From Plectonema radiosum NIES-515 (GTDB lineage Bacteria; Cyanobacteriota; Cyanobacteriia; Cyanobacteriales; Nostocaceae): a stretch of DNA of 43,574 nt. The stretch is taken from positions 1 through 43,574 of the forward strand of contig NZ_JAOWRF010000152.1 in assembly GCF_025753815.1 (NCBI RefSeq), in the 5' to 3' direction. The position numbers and the translations under genes were made by a program. Shown here piece by piece: positions 2,616 through 9,809 of this stretch. The notes under the pieces were generated by a model that was not told where the DNA came from, searched no databases, and saw nothing but the letters and a program-made list of their open reading frames with translations. Position 1 is the first letter of the stretch; the number at the start of each line of letters is the position of its first letter.

Positions 2616-3386
2616 ATGACAGACATTCATCTTGGTTCAAGTGGAAAAACAAACCAGCAGAAACGTTTAGTTTCCATTTATTGGGATTATCAGAACGTGT
2701 CTTTAAGTCAAGAATTAGCAAGTTTATTGCTAGCTTTTGCCAATTCAAAGGGACGTGTGATTGGCAAAAAAGTCTACTATAATTCACTGTTTGAAAACCA
2801 AGCTTCTGCAAAGGATAGCCTACAAAGTATTGGTTTTTGCTGTTATGATGTTACGTGCGTTTTAAAAAACAGTGCAGATAATCAGCTTAAATCTGATTTA
2901 ATTGATGATGTTTATAACAATCAGTCTCCGAACATAGTTATTCTTGTATCAGGAGATGGAGACTTTGCCAATCCAGTTAAATTTTTGCAAGATAGGGGTA
3001 AAAATATCATAGTTTTTGCAAAAAAAGGTAATGTAAAGAAAAAGTTGAAAGAGCTTGCTCATGAATTTTACTTTGTAGATGATTTACCTCAGTTAATTGT
3101 AGAAACAAATCAGTCTCAAATAACGTTCATTAATTCCCAAATTAATTATAATGAGGCTATAGAGTACCTTGTCAAAGCTATCAAGATTGCGTTAAGCCAA
3201 GGGAAGTCTACAGTATTGGGTTACATTAACAGCCTGATGCGTGAACATTTTTCCAATTATCAGGGAGTTTCGTGTATTTGTACACCTGATGGAAAGAAAT
3301 TTTCACGCTTTAGTAAGTTTGTTGATGTTGCTGTGAAAGAAGGGAAAGTCCGAATGCAAAATCAGGAGTTGCTTTTAATAGAGTAA
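2616..3386 (+). CDS. NYN domain (LabA/DUF88-like) putative ribonuclease
   Basis: 256 aa. NYN domains are PIN-like metal-dependent nucleases that act on RNA. The visible acidic active-site positions are YWDYQNV (about 22-28), the central LKSDLIDDVYNN (about 89-100) and VSGDGDFANPVKFL (about 110-123), followed by the KNIIVFAKKGN strand typical of the LabA group. The C-terminal ~85 residues form a separate helical region with a conserved-looking HTH-like pattern (KSTVLGYINSLMREHF...GKKFSRFSKFVDVAVKEGKV), reminiscent of the OST-HTH/LOTUS modules that accompany NYN domains; that second assignment is tentative. It is followed by an intrinsic terminator and then by RNase III on the same strand. Confidence 0.82.
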   Translation: MTDIHLGSSGKTNQQKRLVSIYWDYQNVSLSQELASLLLAFANSKGRVIGKKVYYNSLFENQASAKDSLQSIGFCCYDVTCVLKNSADNQLKSDLIDDVYNNQSPNIVILVSGDGDFANPVKFLQDRGKNIIVFAKKGNVKKKLKELAHEFYFVDDLPQLIVETNQSQITFINSQINYNEAIEYLVKAIKIALSQGKSTVLGYINSLMREHFSNYQGVSCICTPDGKKFSRFSKFVDVAVKEGKVRMQNQELLLIE

Positions 3387-3437
3387 TATAAATTGGCAGC
3401 CTGAAGTTGTTTCCCGGAAATACACTATAGCTTTTGC

Positions 3438-3470
3438 AAACCCAGTTTATTTAAACAGCTGGGTTTTTTT
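3438..3470 (+). terminator. Intrinsic terminator after the NYN gene
   Basis: Stem AAACCCAG / CTGGGTTT closed over an AT-rich loop and followed by a run of seven T. It lies 52 bp after the stop of the NYN gene and before the RNase III start, so the two genes probably form separate transcripts. Confidence 0.75.
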
Positions 3471-3536
3471 AAGTTCGCTGCTATTTGCAGTTTTACAACC
3501 TTCAATTTTGAACACAATAATACTTGGAAAATTTCC

Positions 3537-4262
3537 ATGCAATTAAGTTCCGCAAACAAAAACGAGATAAACATGCACAAAGTTCTGACATTTCGTGATG
3601 AAAAACTTTTACGCAAAGCTTTAACCCATCGTTCTTATGTTAATGAAAATCCAGGAGAAGGAGAACATAACGAACGCTTAGAATTTCTCGGTGATGCGTT
3701 GCTCAATTTTTTAAGTGGTGAATATCTCTTTTGTCATCACCCAGAAAGAGGAGAAGATGAATTAACTCGTCGTCGTTCAGCATTAGTAGATGAAAAACAA
3801 TTAGCAAAGTTCGCTATTGAAGTAGGTTTAGACTTTAGAATGCGGTTAGGAAAAGGTGCAATTCGAGATGGAGGCTTTCAAAATCCCAACTTACTTAGTA
3901 GTACTTTTGAAGCGGTTATTGCTGCTTATTATTTAGATAATAATTCAGATATTGAAGCGGTTAGAGCTATTGTTGAACCATTATTTGATTCTGTACCTGA
4001 AAATATTGTTGTATCTCGCTCTAATGTAGATTCAAAAAATCGTCTTCAGGAATGGGTACAACGTAATGTAACTCCAAATCCCCCTAAATATGACGCAGTT
4101 CAAATAGGTGGTTTATCTCACGCACCAGAGTATCTTGCCAAAGTCTTTGTCGGTGAAAAAGAGTATGGACAAGGTAAAGGACGCAATAAAAAAGATGCGG
4201 AAAAAGCTGCGGCAGAAGATGCGATCGCCCTTTTGAAAAAACAAGGTTTGTTGTTAAGTTGA
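3537..4262 (+). CDS. rnc: Ribonuclease III
   Basis: Double-strand-specific endoribonuclease acting in rRNA maturation and mRNA/antisense RNA turnover. The full family architecture is visible: catalytic domain with signature NERLEFLGDALL (about 45-56), the second acidic cluster in SSTFEAVIAAYYLDNN (about 120-135), and a C-terminal double-stranded RNA-binding domain (about 162-238) with NRLQEWVQ and KKDAEKAAAEDAIALL. Length (241 aa) is normal. The start is uncertain: an ATG at 3573 (MHKVLTFRDEKLL) fits where most family members begin and has a weak GAG seven bases upstream; the upstream ATG at 3537 adds 12 residues. Cyanobacteria often carry more than one RNase III, so this may be one of several paralogues. 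Confidence 0.93.
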   Translation: MQLSSANKNEINMHKVLTFRDEKLLRKALTHRSYVNENPGEGEHNERLEFLGDALLNFLSGEYLFCHHPERGEDELTRRRSALVDEKQLAKFAIEVGLDFRMRLGKGAIRDGGFQNPNLLSSTFEAVIAAYYLDNNSDIEAVRAIVEPLFDSVPENIVVSRSNVDSKNRLQEWVQRNVTPNPPKYDAVQIGGLSHAPEYLAKVFVGEKEYGQGKGRNKKDAEKAAAEDAIALLKKQGLLLS

Positions 4263-4302
4263 ATCATGAAACTTTGACTGACAAAGGCAAAATGACAGTA
4301 AA

Positions 4303-4325
4303 AGTAGGATTAACTCCTGCTTTTT
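4303..4325 (+). terminator. Terminator after rnc
   Basis: Seven-base-pair stem AGTAGGA / TCCTGCT (one G-U pair) with a five-base loop and five T, 41 bp after the rnc stop. It ends the rnc transcript before the long leader of the transporter operon. Confidence 0.65.
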
Positions 4326-4563
4326 GAATCTAGCTTAATTTTGCCTTTCCCTGCTCGGTCTAGCTTTGAAAACAGCGAGCGATCGCTATTTGGATTTTCT
4401 AGCTATTTATCTATATTTCATCTGTCTAAAGACATAATCTGATGATTTATTATTTTGCTTGTTTTCTATGGAAAATATAAGAAATATTTAATTTAAATAT
4501 TTTAAGATAAATATAATATTTACCAAAGAACCATGTTACGATTTATATTCAAATTGAGTAAGT

Positions 4564-4827
4564 CAGCTTAATCTAGCAAATTTCATTACCCAAAGTGTTT
4601 AGGTGGGAGATGATGCTAGAGCGGAGGAACCATATTTTGGGGCGTATTTTCTAGAAAGTTAAGAGTGAGGAGTGAAAAGTGAGGAGTTTTGAACTCATAA
4701 CTTTCGTAGAGACGTTCCGGCAAAACGTCTCTACATAACTCATAACTCATAACTCATAACTCATAACTTTCTTAAAAAGGGTATTTCTCAACCCTAGCCC
4801 GTCAGCTAACTTCGTAGGCATTGAGAA
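4564..4827 (+). promoter_or_regulatory. c-di-AMP (ydaO-yuaA) riboswitch-like leader, first copy
   Basis: The core sequence marks of the ydaO-yuaA class occur in order. AGCTTAATCT is followed by a hairpin with stem TCTAGCA (4572-4578) / TGCTAGA (4614-4620), then GCGGAGGAACCA (4621-4632), GGGGCGTA (4639-4646), and finally CCCGTCAGCTAAC (4798-4810) with TTCGTAGGC. The class binds cyclic di-AMP and usually switches transcription off. Between the two conserved halves sits about 140 nt of repeat sequence that can itself fold: AGAAAGTTAAGAGT near 4652 pairs with ACTCATAACTTTCT near 4760. Downstream, a GC-rich possible hairpin and ATTTTTTG precede the permease start, but I could not resolve a clean terminator. 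The assignment rests on recalled consensus; a covariance-model search was not possible. Confidence 0.8.
4660..4770. repeat. Repeat cluster inside the riboswitch peripheral stem
   Basis: Contains GAGTGAGGAGTGAAAAGTGAGG-type direct repeats, one copy of the 29-bp palindrome family (4706-4734) and at least four tandem heptamers of the type ATAACTC (4735-4768). The whole block is placed between conserved riboswitch halves and closes on itself as a hairpin. Confidence 0.75.
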
Positions 4828-4937
4828 GAGACTGAAGAGGCAGCCAACATTCTTATATAATGTTATGACCTCATCAGTGTCCAAGGCTGGTGCTGCTCAG
4901 ATTTTTTGTACCTGCACTTAAATCTGTTGAGGTGAAA

Positions 4938-5789
4938 ATGATATTTCAATTAAATTTGGCTGCAATTGTTGCAGTTGCGGGACAGACTATATGGAAACAG
5001 GCAAAACCTACGATTTTCAAAGATGTAGTTCTGTTACCTGTGTTTGGGTTCTTGGGGATAATCTTATTGTGGTGGGTTATTGCCCTTGCCAACCATGAAT
5101 TGATGCCCACCCCGCCTGAGGCATTAGCAGCGAATATGGACTACATATTACACCCTTTTTACCAACGCGGACCGGGCAACTTGGGAATTGGTTGGTTATT
5201 GCTAGCAAGTCTGCGTCGGGTAATACTTGGCTTTTTATTAGGTGCTGTAGTCGCAATTCCTTTGGGTTTTTTGATTGGCATGTCGAAATCGGCAATGTTA
5301 GCTTTTAATCCGATCATTCAGATTTTTAAACCCGTATCACCTCTAGCGTGGTTGCCTATTTCCTTAGCCATATTCAACTTAGCAGATCCGTCAGCGATTT
5401 TTGTTATATTCATTACTTCATTGTGGCCGACAATTATTAACACCGCTCTGGGAGTTTCTAGCGTTTCCAAAGATTATTTAGATGTAGCGCGGGTGTTAGA
5501 AATGCCTCGTTGGAGACGGATTACAAAAATTATCTTGCCCGCCAGTTTGCCGTATATTTTTACAGGTTTGCGAATTAGTTTAGGCATTGCTTGGCTAGTA
5601 ATTGTTGCTGTAGAAATGCTCACAGGTGGTATTGGAATCGGCTTTTTTGTCTGGGATGAATGGAGCCGTTTAAACCTGAGTTCAGTGTTTTTAGCTGTGT
5701 TCGTAATTGGCATAACTGGACTACTACTTGACTTCGCCGTCGGCAAAGTCCAAGAATTAGTAACTCATCGTCCAACAGCTTCAAATTAG
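4938..5789 (+). CDS. ABC transporter permease, nitrate/bicarbonate type (NrtB/CmpB-like)
   Basis: Inner-membrane permease of about 283 aa. An N-terminal membrane segment (PVFGFLGIILLWWVIALA) is followed by the BPD_transp_1 domain, with the EAA-loop region DVARVLEMPRWRRITKIILP (about 180-200) that docks the ATPase. It is typical of NrtB, CmpB and SsuC-like proteins. I chose the ATG at 4938 because GAGGTG lies just upstream; an upstream GTG at 4890 would put the start in the leader. It is preceded by a c-di-AMP riboswitch-like leader and followed by repeats, then by the binding protein and ATPase genes. The substrate is not determinable: nitrate, bicarbonate or another small solute. Confidence 0.85.
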   Translation: MIFQLNLAAIVAVAGQTIWKQAKPTIFKDVVLLPVFGFLGIILLWWVIALANHELMPTPPEALAANMDYILHPFYQRGPGNLGIGWLLLASLRRVILGFLLGAVVAIPLGFLIGMSKSAMLAFNPIIQIFKPVSPLAWLPISLAIFNLADPSAIFVIFITSLWPTIINTALGVSSVSKDYLDVARVLEMPRWRRITKIILPASLPYIFTGLRISLGIAWLVIVAVEMLTGGIGIGFFVWDEWSRLNLSSVFLAVFVIGITGLLLDFAVGKVQELVTHRPTASN

Positions 5790-5854
5790 CAATTGGATAG
5801 TGGATAGTTGATGGTGGATAGTGGTTAGTCGTTAGTGGGTCGTTGATAGTGGTT

Positions 5855-5988
5855 ATACCAATTTTATGTGAGGCTGCATATAATGCCCTCAGGCTGAAGC
5901 CTGGGGCTACACAAACAAAGCCTGTCTTGTCTACGACACGCTACGCGAACACAGGCTAATAATATGCATCTTTAAATAAAATTGGTAT
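5855..5988. mobile_element. MITE-like element with ATACCAATTTTAT ends
   Basis: The ends are inverted: ATACCAATTTTAT (5855-5867) and ATAAAATTGGTAT (5976-5988), extending imperfectly inwards through TGCATAT. The interior holds palindromes CAGGCT-GA-AGCCTG and AGCCTGT...ACAGGCT. It has no coding capacity. The element splits a tract of ATAGTGGTTAG-type tandem repeats, which indicates it inserted into the repeats. A related interior (GCCCTCAG...CTGGGGCTACACA) recurs at 21783. Confidence 0.7.
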
Positions 5989-6006
5989 TAGTGGTTAGTT
6001 GTTGGG

Positions 6007-6125
6007 TATCAACCATCAACCATCAACCATCAACCATCAACCATCAACTATCAACTATCAACTATCAACTATCAACTATCAACTATCAACTATCAACTAT
6101 CAACCATCAACCATCAACTATCAAC
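6007..6125. repeat. Heptamer short tandem repeats (CAACCAT / CAACTAT)
   Basis: About sixteen back-to-back heptamers, first CAACCAT, then CAACTAT, then CAACCAT again, ending 30 bp before the binding-protein start. Such STRRs are common in heterocystous cyanobacteria. Together with the MITE-like element they make up most of the 5790-6157 gap; no gene is seen there. Confidence 0.9.
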
Positions 6126-6157
6126 GAACAACGAACAACCATCGGTGAAAATGACAT

Positions 6158-7594
6158 ATGAGTAACACCGACAATAACAACTGGACTCGACGAGACTTTA
6201 TATTAGGAATCGGAGCAACCACAGCGGGAACTCTGCTGTCTTCGTGTGCAATTTCAGGCGATCGCTCGGCTAAAGGACTGACTGAAGAAGCTTTAGCGAT
6301 AAAACCAGTAGTTAGATCCCAAGACTTAGAAAAACCGGATATCACCGTTGGTTATGTGCCGGTAAATGATTGTGCACCATTTGCGATCGCCTGGAAAAAA
6401 GGCTTCTTCCACAAATATGGCTTGAACGTCAAACTCAACCGCGAAGCTAGTTGGGCAACCTCCCGCGACGGCTTAATTTTTGGTCGTCTTGATGCCTCAC
6501 CCGTGGTATCCGGTGCCGTCACCAACGCCAGAATCGGTGCTGAAGGGGCACGTCACGCTCCCTTGTGTGCGGCAATGACCATTCACCGTCACGGCAACGC
6601 CATGACCATGAACAAAGCCATGTGGGATTTCGGGTTGCGTCCGTGGTATGAATACAACGGCGATTTAGAAGCATTTGGCAAACAATTCCGGGCATACTTT
6701 GACAGCCAACCCCCAGAACGCAAAGTTTGGGCTGTGGTGCTAAGTTCCGCCATTTACGAATACTTTGTCCGCTACGTATCCGCTGCCGCAGGTGTCGATC
6801 CCCTGAAAGAGTTTCGCGTCATCATCGTTCCACCCCCGCAGATGGTAACAAACATGCGGATTGGGGCAATGCAAGCTTACATGGTTGCGGAACCTTGGAA
6901 TACACGGGCAATTAAAGGCAACGAGGGTGTTGGCTTTACCTTCGCACAAGGCAAAGAAATTTGGCAGGGACACCCAGATAGGCTTTTAGGGGTAATGCAA
7001 TCATTCATCGACCAATACCCGAAAACCTATCGTTCTCTGGTGAAAGCGATGATTGAAGCCTGCCAATATTGCAGCAAACCAGAAAACCGCCAAGAAGTTG
7101 CCGAACTGATTACAGATCGCTCCTTTACCGGTGCAAAACCGAAAAAGAAAGGTGCAGCGATCGCGCTTTTTACCAGCCCCGGAATTGTCGGCAACTACAA
7201 CTATGGTGGATTTGATGGCAAAGACCGCATCATCAAAGCTGCCGATACTACGATTTTCTACGATATTCCTGACAACATTCCCAAACAGCCTGGAGAACAC
7301 TCGACATTTTTATGGAGATCCAGAAGTCTTTGGTTGATGACACAAGCAGCACGTTGGGGACAAATTAAGGAATTTCCCAAAAATGCTGAGAAACTGGCTC
7401 AACAAGGCTGGAGAACCGATTTATATCGAGAAATTGCCGCAGAAATGGGTATCGATTGTCCCAAGGATGATTACAAAGTAGAACCTCCCGAAGTATTCAT
7501 CGACAAAAAAGGCTTTGACCCTAGCGATCCTGTGCGCTATCTCAACAGTTTTGAGATTAGGGCAAATGCACCCAACCGTTTTTATTTGGGTTAA
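6158..7594 (+). CDS. ABC transporter substrate-binding lipoprotein (NrtA/CmpA-related, Tat signal)
   Basis: 478 aa. The N-terminus has a twin-arginine motif TRRDFILGIG followed by a lipobox ending LLSSC, so it should be exported folded by Tat and anchored as a lipoprotein. The mature part begins DITVGYVPVNDCAPFAIAWKKG, the NMT1/NrtA-type periplasmic-binding fold, with a GFFHKYGLNVKL segment. It is clearly divergent from classical nitrate- or bicarbonate-binding NrtA/CmpA, so the substrate is open. Its length and C-terminal extension (about 330-478) resemble the larger NrtA class. It lies between permease and ATPase genes on the same strand, but repeats on both sides give intergenic gaps of about 300-370 bp. 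Confidence 0.83.
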   Translation: MSNTDNNNWTRRDFILGIGATTAGTLLSSCAISGDRSAKGLTEEALAIKPVVRSQDLEKPDITVGYVPVNDCAPFAIAWKKGFFHKYGLNVKLNREASWATSRDGLIFGRLDASPVVSGAVTNARIGAEGARHAPLCAAMTIHRHGNAMTMNKAMWDFGLRPWYEYNGDLEAFGKQFRAYFDSQPPERKVWAVVLSSAIYEYFVRYVSAAAGVDPLKEFRVIIVPPPQMVTNMRIGAMQAYMVAEPWNTRAIKGNEGVGFTFAQGKEIWQGHPDRLLGVMQSFIDQYPKTYRSLVKAMIEACQYCSKPENRQEVAELITDRSFTGAKPKKKGAAIALFTSPGIVGNYNYGGFDGKDRIIKAADTTIFYDIPDNIPKQPGEHSTFLWRSRSLWLMTQAARWGQIKEFPKNAEKLAQQGWRTDLYREIAAEMGIDCPKDDYKVEPPEVFIDKKGFDPSDPVRYLNSFEIRANAPNRFYLG

Positions 7595-7603
7595 AAAAGT
7601 GGT

Positions 7604-7672
7604 GTTGCATAATACGTATTGTAAAGACGTTCCACCGGAACGTCTCTACGATTCATCCCACGGTTATGCAAC
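7604..7672. repeat. Short element with GTTGCATAA ends around a 29-bp palindrome
   Basis: Perfect 9-bp inverted ends GTTGCATAA (7604-7612) and TTATGCAAC (7664-7672) enclose the palindrome GTAAAGACGTTCC...GGAACGTCTCTAC (7621-7649). It begins 10 bp after the binding-protein stop codon. Confidence 0.65.
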
Positions 7673-7700
7673 GCGAAAAATCATTCTTCATCTGGTGAAA

Positions 7701-7812
7701 AATAGACGTTCCATCGGAATAAATAGACGTTCCATCGGAATAAATAGACGTTCCATCGGAATAAATAGACGTTCCATCGGAATAAATAGACGTTCCATCG
7801 GAACGTCTCTAC
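7701..7812. repeat. Five tandem 21-bp copies of a half palindrome
   Basis: The unit ATAGACGTTCCATCGGAATAA is repeated with a 21-bp period, and the last copy ends in the complementary half GGAACGTCTCTAC. It looks like local amplification of the left half of the 29-bp palindrome family. The 21-bp period makes it readable as a heptapeptide repeat in one frame, but there is no start signal or gene context. Confidence 0.85.
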
Positions 7813-7889
7813 AAGGGTTCGGATAACGCATAATTAATTTCCACATCGTTGTCTATTAGCCATCAGTATTATTTCAGGAGTTAATCGAG

Positions 7890-8726
7890 ATGAAATCTAC
7901 CTCTTTTTCGGAAAATAACTACAATATCGCTACACCCCGCACTGGATTTTTAGAAGTTGAAAATTTAGTGAAAGCTTATCCTTCACCTGATGGGAAAAAA
8001 TCTGTCGTTTTAGATAATGTGAATCTCAGTATTGGTGAGGACGAATATGTTTCTATAATTGGTCACTCCGGTTGTGGTAAATCTACTTTATTAAAAATAG
8101 TAGCCGGTTTAGAAAAAGCAACTTCTGGCTCAGTGCGGCTTGATGGGAAAGAAATTAACAAGCCGGGAGCCGAGAGAATGATGGTGTTTCAAAACTACTC
8201 GTTACTACCTTGGTTAACGGTACGAGAAAACATTCGTCTGGCTGTGGATGAAGTGTTAAAGGGTGCATCTCGTGCCGAGAAAATTAGCATTGTTAACGAG
8301 CACCTAGCAATGGTAAATTTAAATGCAGCGGCTGAAAAATATCCCGATGAAATTTCTGGAGGAATGAAACAGCGTGTTGGGATTGCCAGAGCGATCGCCA
8401 TTCGTCCGAAAATGTTGCTGATGGATGAACCTTTTGGAGCGTTAGATGCTTTAACTCGCGGGAAATTGCAGCGTCAGGTATTAGATATCTGGGAAAATCA
8501 CCGACAAGCGGTAATGATGATTACTCATGATGTGGATGAAGCAATTTATATGAGCGATCGCATTGTCTTGATGACCAACGGTCCAGCGGCTAATATTGGA
8601 GAAATATTACCAGTCATGTTTGAACATCCACGCGATCGCGCAGCCATGCGAAACTCAAAAGAATATTTTGAACTTCGCAACCACGCTTTAAATTTCTTAG
8701 ACCGCTATTTTACTCAAGACGAGTAA
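7890..8726 (+). CDS. ABC transporter ATP-binding protein (NrtD/CmpD-like)
   Basis: 278 aa cytoplasmic ATPase that powers the adjacent permease. It has Walker A GHSGCGKST (58-66), Q-loop VFQNYSLLPWLTV (99-111), signature ISGGMKQR (155-162), Walker B KMLLMDE (174-180) and the switch histidine in MMITHDVDEA. It is the size of the single-domain NrtD/CmpD, without the NrtC-type fused binding domain. An AGGAG ten bases before the ATG supports the start. Most likely it is the third component of the riboswitch-headed transporter. It is followed by a second riboswitch-like leader for the next gene. Confidence 0.88.
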   Translation: MKSTSFSENNYNIATPRTGFLEVENLVKAYPSPDGKKSVVLDNVNLSIGEDEYVSIIGHSGCGKSTLLKIVAGLEKATSGSVRLDGKEINKPGAERMMVFQNYSLLPWLTVRENIRLAVDEVLKGASRAEKISIVNEHLAMVNLNAAAEKYPDEISGGMKQRVGIARAIAIRPKMLLMDEPFGALDALTRGKLQRQVLDIWENHRQAVMMITHDVDEAIYMSDRIVLMTNGPAANIGEILPVMFEHPRDRAAMRNSKEYFELRNHALNFLDRYFTQDE

Positions 8727-8749
8727 AATACACTATCATTTATCCTAGT

Positions 8750-8946
8750 GGGTAGCCTAATTCAAATTCATCAAATCTAGATTTGAAGCGGAGGAACCAT
8801 CTTATGGGGCGTATCTTTTAGTAAGTTAATTAGGAGTTAAGAGTTAATAGTTACTACTATTTAACTCAGTACTGAAAACTCATAACTTTTGGAGAAAGAC
8901 ACCTTCCAGTCTTAGCCCGTCAGCTAACTCCGTCGGCAATGGAAGG
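8750..8946 (+). promoter_or_regulatory. c-di-AMP (ydaO-yuaA) riboswitch-like leader, second copy
   Basis: Same conserved blocks as the first copy: TAGCCTAAT, hairpin TTCAAAT / ATTTGAA (8761-8787), GCGGAGGAACCA (8788-8799), GGGGCGTATC (8806-8815), and after a variable stem TTAGCCCGTCAGCTAAC (8912-8928) with CTCCGTCGGC. CACCTTCC and GGAAGG flank the second block and can pair. The variable stem again consists of GAGTTAAGAGTTAATAG-type repeat sequence that folds back on itself (GAGTTAA / TTAACTC). It lies between the transporter ATPase gene and the USP gene; a terminator-like hairpin follows at once, so it probably controls the USP gene. Confidence 0.82.
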
Positions 8947-8992
8947 AACCCCCAAAACTTTGGCTGTTATAACAGTTGTTATTGGGGTTTCC
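8945..8992 (+). terminator. Hairpin after second riboswitch (candidate expression platform)
   Basis: Stem GGAACCCCCAA (8945-8955) / TTGGGGTTTCC (8982-8992) with one mismatch, enclosing the palindrome CTGTTATAACAG. Its 5' side overlaps the end of the riboswitch closing helix (GGAAGG), which is how a transcription switch could work. The downstream sequence TTAAATATAAA is only weakly T-rich, so termination is uncertain. Confidence 0.5.
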
Positions 8993-9152
8993 TTAAATAT
9001 AAAGATGAATAACAAAGGATGAAGGATTAAAAATATACTTGATTAATTTATACTTCATCCTTCTGCTCCGGAGACGTTCCGCGAATACAATTCAGCCTTT
9101 ACTTACCCTGCTTCTCGTTCATCGTTCATTTTAGTAGAGAGAAGTTAAAGCT

Positions 9153-9809
9153 GTGAAAATCAAGCCAATGTTAGTTCGTCTTCAAAGCGCAATAGGTCGT
9201 GATGACTTAATTGAGCAAATGGTATTGTTATCACCAAAAACATCTTGTACTGAAAAATCTCACCCAGCAAAATCAATTAACTTAATCGTTGGCTACAACA
9301 GTTCTCCCAACAGCCATACCGCACTAGATATTGCCTTTTGGATTACCCATCAAACACGTTTAGCCACTAACGTAGAAGTTATAGTTCAAGCTGTTTATGT
9401 AGTAGAGGATAATCAAAAAAATCAGTATTTAGATGTCTTTAATTCCGAAATGCATGAGCCATCATTGGCATGTCCAGTCAACTATGCATCCAAGTCTATT
9501 ACATCGGTATTATCTGAACCCAAACTCAGATTAAATGCACTTTCTTTAGAAACAAAATTGGTAGACACCCTCACACAAGCAGACCGAATTCTTTGGCAAG
9601 CACGGAGTTTGGCTGAAGAATGGCAAGGTTCTTTTAAAGCTCATTTGCGGTTTGGCTGCGTTGCTGAAGAACTTCAGAAAGTAGTTAAATTAGAAGCTGC
9701 TGATATCCTGTTTCTGGGTTGTCAGTCTATAAATCATCCGATTATCCAGACACTAGACTCTAATTTACCCTGTGTTGTTCTGGGTATTCCCAATTGTATA
9801 AACATTTAA
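9153..9809 (+). CDS. Universal stress protein (UspA-like) family protein
   Basis: 218 aa with a Rossmann-like USP fold: first strand INLIVGYNSSPNSHTALDIAFW (about 44-65), long middle helix ILWQARSLAEEWQGSF, and the late strand/loop AADILFLGCQSINHPIIQ near the C-terminus. Classical ATP-binding USPs end with a GxxGxxxxGS motif. Here only a weak version is visible (LGCQSINHPII), so nucleotide binding is uncertain. The start is GTG 9153, with GAGAGAAG upstream; ATG 9168 is an alternative. The gene has its own c-di-AMP riboswitch-like leader about 200 bp upstream, which links it to osmotic or second-messenger control rather than to a general stress regulon. 8993-9152 holds inverted short repeats only. 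Confidence 0.7.
   Translation: MKIKPMLVRLQSAIGRDDLIEQMVLLSPKTSCTEKSHPAKSINLIVGYNSSPNSHTALDIAFWITHQTRLATNVEVIVQAVYVVEDNQKNQYLDVFNSEMHEPSLACPVNYASKSITSVLSEPKLRLNALSLETKLVDTLTQADRILWQARSLAEEWQGSFKAHLRFGCVAEELQKVVKLEAADILFLGCQSINHPIIQTLDSNLPCVVLGIPNCINI

Follow-up and report, generated by a model that had tools for sequence, protein, structure and literature searches.

Two RF00379 riboswitch leaders precede an ABC importer operon and the adjacent universal stress protein gene of Plectonema radiosum NIES-515

In a 43,574-nucleotide stretch of the Plectonema radiosum NIES-515 genome (contig NZ_JAOWRF010000152.1, analysed as a whole and called the window below), two leaders of the Rfam family RF00379, the ydaO-yuaA class that senses cyclic di-AMP (c-di-AMP), precede an ATP-binding cassette (ABC) importer operon and the adjacent gene of a universal stress protein (USP). 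Judged by their sequence, both leaders are genuine RF00379 riboswitches, with a predicted response to c-di-AMP, and they probably control the importer operon and the USP gene as the core of a cyanobacterial c-di-AMP regulon. The locus is most likely one instance of a widespread regulon, which would serve osmotic, ion or solute homeostasis.

Two RF00379 leaders in the window

The whole window was scanned on both strands with cmscan against Rfam 15. Two matches reached gathering, and both were to RF00379 (gathering score 38 bits):

4564-4835, + strand: aptamer 1, leader of the transporter operon (RF00379 match at 4577-4835, 57.9 bits, E = 5.5e-11), with a 5' strand from about 4562
8750-8950, + strand: aptamer 2, leader of the USP gene (RF00379 match at 8759-8950, 53.1 bits, E = 1.1e-9; 110.6 bits with the alignment-built model R1)

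An earlier note on this DNA, made without database searches, had proposed two leaders of this class from a shared order of sequence blocks, and the scan bears out the proposal. The blocks were found at the places given there: GCGGAGGAACCA at 4621-4632 in leader 1 and 8788-8799 in leader 2, GGGGCGTA at 4639-4646 and 8806-8813, and CCCGTCAGCTAAC at 4798-4810 and 8916-8928. The conserved core blocks and paired helices of RF00379 are present in both leaders, and the helices covary in 39 relatives. For leader 1, the 5' limit of 4564 suggested in the note looks better than the 4577 of Rfam, since a 5' strand GTCAGCYTAAT is common to the window and five relatives and the Rfam alignment flags non-standard pairs at the 5' end of aptamer 1.

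Searching the entire genome with RF00379 yielded one match beyond the two in the window, an 81.9-bit copy on another contig. This third copy (G000:C378:4503-4643, - strand; L001/L163) is followed by an open reading frame (ORF) for a 67-aa protein, and a similar ORF also lies behind an RF00379 match in L010, from the same genus. The genome encodes a DAC domain (PF02457, 128.4 bits), so the messenger c-di-AMP can probably be made.

Aptamer fold and pseudoknot

Covariation was assessed in 39 compact aptamers picked from 186 RF00379 matches, which included transporter and other targets. The tested structure comprised 30 pairs including the pseudoknot and was derived from the same alignment, so that the slid control flatters it. 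Two-sided changes were found at 14 of the 30 pairs, compared with 7.7 in shuffles, and none of 500 shuffles reached 14; 98.1% of cells were paired, compared with 91.7% in shuffles and 34-53% when the structure was slid. A pseudoknot between a loop and the 3' tail is a defining feature of RF00379. Among the 39 relatives, 98.5% of the cells of this helix were paired and four of its seven pairs showed two-sided changes; in each window leader all seven pairs can form. The alignment also contains many invariant core columns, with which the core blocks of the window agree. The structural elements within the aptamers are as follows:

4784-4790 (loop, TTTCTCA) and 4822-4828 (tail, TGAGAAG), + strand: pseudoknot of aptamer 1, seven pairs, one of them G-U
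8902-8908 (loop, CCTTCCA) and 8940-8946 (tail, TGGAAGG), + strand: pseudoknot of aptamer 2, seven Watson-Crick pairs
4647-4778, + strand: expanded variable helix of aptamer 1, with inverted-repeat arms at 4647-4691 and 4734-4778

Aptamer 1 owes its length to a palindromic repeat (4706-4734) and CATAACT repeats within its variable helix. The segment 4643-4780 folds on itself (-45.4 kcal/mol, z -6.26). The size of the variable helix differs among relatives, those aligned being shorter than that of the window, and the helix of an RF00379 riboswitch evidently tolerates the insertion of repeats. The palindromic repeat reads GTAGAGACGTT..AACGTCTCTAC, and similar stretches were seen in Tolypothrix (L243) and Hassallia (L244).

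Conservation of the leaders and of the gene pair

In a class sample of 290 genomes, orthologues of the substrate-binding protein (SBP) of the importer with at least 62% identity were kept, giving 98 places in 96 genomes; the second fragment of a gene in G399 and a 61% fragment in G359 were excluded. These orthologues are separate from a sister clade at 41-45% identity (10 genomes) and from NrtC/CmpC-like matches. An RF00379 match was found upstream of the SBP, on the same strand and at a distance of 0.9-2.7 kb, at 84 of the 98 orthologue places, compared with none of the 10 places of the sister clade. Nine of the ten sister-clade loci were scanned (L154-L162) and gave no Rfam match at gathering, and a guanidine riboswitch was accordingly rejected for that clade.

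Of the 14 orthologue places that lacked the upstream match, at least four do carry an aptamer, either weak or truncated at a contig end. In G255 and G193 (L170, L179) the aptamer and permease are found together on a different contig, which is broken; in L118 the contig begins with a truncated aptamer, and L138 has a weak one of 28.6 bits. The match in G170 starts at a contig end, and G216:C200 is a fragment of a split gene, the leader being found with the other fragment. G151 carries an aptamer on a short contig whose link to the transporter is not shown, and the sequence of G307 was not fetched.

The named set consisted of 80 loci from Nostoc, Anabaena, Tolypothrix, Fischerella and others (at least 83% identity), which partly overlap the class sample. 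Here the alignment-built model detected a leader upstream in 79 loci and downstream in 67. In 69 of the 80 the ATPase gene is followed by a USP homologue, and 65 of these 69 loci have the downstream leader. The expectation that orthologous loci keep both leaders held for most of the named loci. In the class sample the first leader is common, and the second is not: a downstream RF00379 match within 4 kb was found at 13 of the 98 places. In three Fischerella/Westiellopsis loci (L287, L290 and L293) the USP match follows the ATPase match by 133-154 nt without a leader of its own, arranged as though the gene were part of the transporter operon. A Chlorogloeopsis locus (L298) likewise has a USP homologue behind the ATPase gene and no second RF00379 match at gathering.

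Other RF00379 targets in these genomes

Among 106 genomes searched, 88 RF00379 matches did not lie beside the transporter; 80 were fetched, and 79 had an ORF behind them. The target was taken as the first ORF of at least 100 aa, and a few may be wrong neighbours. A homologue of the window USP stood behind 44 of the 79 sites, and because unlinked USP homologues so often have their own RF00379 leader, the proposal that an NrtA-family transporter and a USP are controlled together gains strength. A CitMHS/ArsB-type carrier followed 19 sites; we take these carriers to be probably of the same kind as Synechocystis slr0753. The remaining sites preceded two Na+/H+ exchanger-Usp fusions, the importer's own permease at contig ends (two sites) and other genes (12 sites). 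The carriers, the exchanger fusions and a P-type cation ATPase found as one target point to ion or osmotic homeostasis, rather than to the link with carbon uptake that the note had drawn, for which we obtained no special support.

RF00379 was present in 90 of the 96 genomes with the transporter, compared with 67 of 194 without it. The association (Fisher p = 3.9e-24) is only indicative, as the genomes are related and relatedness was not corrected for, and the genome-level count treats two 290-genome class draws as identical.

Several single sites were also recorded. In L193 and L242, RF00379 precedes a Na+/H+ exchanger fused to a Usp domain, that is, two functions of the regulon in one protein. 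In L174 (G393) it precedes a lone NMT1_2 SBP and then an ORF that by eye, with no search made, resembles an aminotransferase. A divergent, back-to-back RF00379 pair lies between a YlmH/S4-domain gene and a USP gene in G353 (L171/L172), and another such pair was seen in G207 (L180/L181), where the gene setting is, by likeness, the same.

Hairpins downstream of the aptamers and predicted polarity

Each aptamer is followed by a conserved hairpin:

4831-4878, + strand: hairpin ACTGA../..TCAGT directly 3' of aptamer 1 (minimum free energy -15.3, z -2.47)
8943-8994, + strand: hairpin AAGGAAcCCCCAA/TTGGGGTTTCCTT, candidate expression platform of aptamer 2, overlapping the pseudoknot tail

We examined 160 transporter leaders, of which 141 had the tail motif needed for the hairpin test. 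The ACTGA../..TCAGT pairing was possible in 132 of the 141, compared with a mean of 61.2 in 50 shuffles, and this hairpin is a candidate for the ligand-free alternative structure of leader 1. A T-run lies downstream of it at 4902-4907. A possible terminator stem CAGTGTC/GGTACTG before the T-run, noticed by eye, would have to compete with a GGTAC..GTACC pairing that recurs. The hairpin behind aptamer 2, whose 5' arm shares sequence with the pseudoknot tail, is kept with few broken pairs in all 27 sequences compared, the window included. The recurrence of the 3' hairpins, together with this overlap, suggests competing folds.

Start positions of the permease were compared in 80 leaders from the class-genome set. 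Ten of them begin the permease only 37-51 nt after the CAGCTAAC block starts, and all ten frames encode the permease; two further candidates, L064 and L081, were set aside since their permease start is the later, long-type one. The pseudoknot tail of L145 and L148 doubles as the Shine-Dalgarno-like stretch GAGGGGAG. A folded aptamer would there prevent translation, and this speaks for OFF polarity. Known RF00379 members are described as OFF-switches in an excerpt of PMC9960051, and the window leaders are most likely OFF-switches as well.

We propose that at high c-di-AMP the aptamer and its loop/tail pseudoknot would fold and compete with the hairpin behind the aptamer, and expression would drop; at low c-di-AMP the alternative hairpin would form and the genes would be on. 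The evidence leaves us evenly divided over a fuller picture. In it, two members would recur in a widespread cyanobacterial regulon, the NrtABC-like importer and a USP-fold protein that lacks the classical nucleotide motif, and certain lineages would also include CitMHS/ArsB-type carriers. Low c-di-AMP (salt stress, end of night) would be the condition under which the importer takes up an osmolyte or ion-linked solute. The platform would have changed in certain lineages, with 3' hairpins giving way to a pseudoknot that masks the ribosome site directly.

The transporter operon and the USP-domain protein

A permease, an SBP resembling a Tat lipoprotein, an ATPase and a USP-domain protein follow each other in the order that had been described:

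4938-5789, + strand: ABC permease, NrtB type (TIGR01183, 235.8 bits, cut-off 209.05; PF00528)
6158-7594, + strand: SBP, NrtA/CmpA family (PF13379 (NMT1_2), 223.4 bits)
7890-8726, + strand: ABC ATPase, NrtC/D type, without a fused regulatory domain (TIGR01184, 358.9 bits, cut-off 291.8)
9153-9809, + strand: USP-domain protein, 218 aa (PF00582, 25.1 bits, marginal against the cut-off of 24)

The permease probably starts at the ATG at 4938, behind GAGG, rather than at the GTG at 4890 of the ORF list. The N-terminus of the SBP, RR...LLSSC, is Tat-lipoprotein-like. Its nearest PDB structures are the C-terminal domain of NrtC/CmpC, followed by NrtA (2g29) and CmpA (2i48). In the NrtABCD/CmpABCD architecture a second ATPase is fused to an SBP-like regulatory domain (NrtC/CmpC); no such fusion was found in the window operon, which has one ATPase of 278 aa. 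The same genome encodes, elsewhere, an NrtA/CmpA-type SBP with an adjoining permease-like ORF and an ATPase-SBP fusion of the NrtC/CmpC type, both labelled by likeness and with no family search. The window SBP is 28% identical to this other SBP. The ligand pocket of NrtA includes a Trp, a Gln, a His-Gly and a Lys. In the alignment with the genome's other SBP the window protein keeps the Trp (W99) and the His-Gly (H145-G146), and its region aligned to GGQWQMP, the Gln region, differs.

The USP-domain protein has a best PDB match with E = 0.27. ATP-binding universal stress proteins carry the motif G-2x-G-9x-G-[S/T], which was found in none of 45 proteins (the window USP and 44 homologues). Instead, these proteins end in a sequence like GC..S..HP....L....PC.VLG.P.

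Within the operon, the gaps at 5790-6157 and 7595-7889 contain short repeats (ATCAACT units and several TAGACGTTCCATCGGAATAAA-like units). Of 77 named loci in which this spacing was counted, 51 have no more than about 110 nt between the SBP match and the start of the ATPase match. The transporter leader is itself directly preceded by genes for an NYN-domain protein and RNase III (2616-4262).

Alternative explanations

The family of the transporter might suggest that it imports nitrate or bicarbonate and that the riboswitch couples carbon or nitrogen uptake to c-di-AMP. The permease and the ATPase do score above the cut-offs of the NCBIfam nitrate-transporter models TIGR01183 and TIGR01184, and the SBP is related to NrtA and CmpA and keeps the aligned W and H-G. 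However, the genome already has a separate NrtA/CmpA-type SBP and an NrtC/CmpC-type fusion, the window SBP is distant from that SBP and differs in the Gln region, the PDB structure nearest to it is the C-terminal domain of NrtC/CmpC, and the remaining members of the regulon suggest ion or osmotic roles. We therefore regard a nitrate or bicarbonate importer as unlikely. Still less probable is that the leaders are ON-switches in which the 3' hairpin is a terminator broken by the ligand-stabilised pseudoknot. The hairpin of leader 2 shares AAGG with the pseudoknot tail, and a folded aptamer would weaken the hairpin base as this mechanism demands, but the pseudoknot leaves the hairpin core CCCCAA/TTGGGG free to form, the pseudoknot would mask the ribosome site in L145 and L148, and the polarity described for known members is the opposite. 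It is very improbable that the leaders are RF00379-like folds which, through degeneration or altered specificity, do not sense c-di-AMP: the window scores are lower than that of the third copy in the genome and aptamer 1 has a repeat expansion, but the expansion folds on itself and is confined to the variable helix, and the window core blocks match the invariant core columns of the 39 compact relatives.

Some observations weigh against control of the importer operon and the USP gene by two OFF-switch riboswitches with competing hairpins. No canonical intrinsic terminator was found at either leader in a pattern scan of 4300-9300, which gave no excess (4 compared with 4.3 in shuffles); a T5+ run 70-130 nt past the anchor is present in 49 of 80 Nostocales-type leaders, and the T tract of leader 2 is merely TTTCCTT. 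The tail motif for the hairpin test is missing in 19 of the 160 leaders. An outer helix P0, formed by the 5-nt GACTG tail and the 5' flank, was possible in 57 of 141 leaders, compared with 79.0 in shuffles, and is unsupported. Six loci (L066, L069, L104, L132, L140 and L152) keep the transporter with no leader detected. As to the outer helix, visual inspection shows only that eight leaders of the genus g133 could form a GAGTC/G[AG]CTC pairing.

Relation to known systems

Both this class of riboswitch and its occurrence in cyanobacteria are already known, and what may be new is the conserved transporter-USP gene set. In the excerpts of the literature available to us, c-di-AMP in cyanobacteria is tied to salt, K+ and day/night survival, and slr0753 is the only cyanobacterial riboswitch target stated as verified. 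Those excerpts report a c-di-AMP riboswitch before this membrane transporter gene in Synechocystis (PMC10117731), an Ncr1680-slr0753 arrangement conserved in two strains (PMC5386190), osmoprotectant genes behind such riboswitches in cyanobacteria (PMC5986932, citing Nelson 2013) and predicted K+ transporter targets in several phyla including Cyanobacteria (PMC6488665). Neither the importer nor the USP was found named as a c-di-AMP riboswitch target in these excerpts or in the literature listings searched, though such targets may already appear in the tables of Mantovani 2022, Nelson 2013 and Block 2010. A conserved transporter and USP pair with its own leaders provides named genes for testing knock-out, substrate and regulation, and offers a way to learn what c-di-AMP reports in cyanobacteria.

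Like the RF00379 riboswitch of Bacillus subtilis ydaO/kimA, the window leaders match the model, carry the same blocks and a covarying pseudoknot, and include one placed before a transporter operon. In contrast to ydaO/kimA, their targets are an NrtABC-type importer and a USP instead of a K+ transporter, the window has an expanded variable helix, and no canonical terminator was called at either leader. With Synechocystis slr0753 the window shares a cyanobacterial c-di-AMP riboswitch before a membrane transporter gene, whereas its targets are an ABC importer and a USP. The permease, ATPase and SBP belong to the same superfamily as NrtABCD and CmpABCD, but the window operon has a single ATPase and no ATPase-SBP fusion, and its SBP group (at least 62% identity) is distinct both from the NrtA/CmpA-type SBP of the same genome (28%) and from the 41-45% sister clade.

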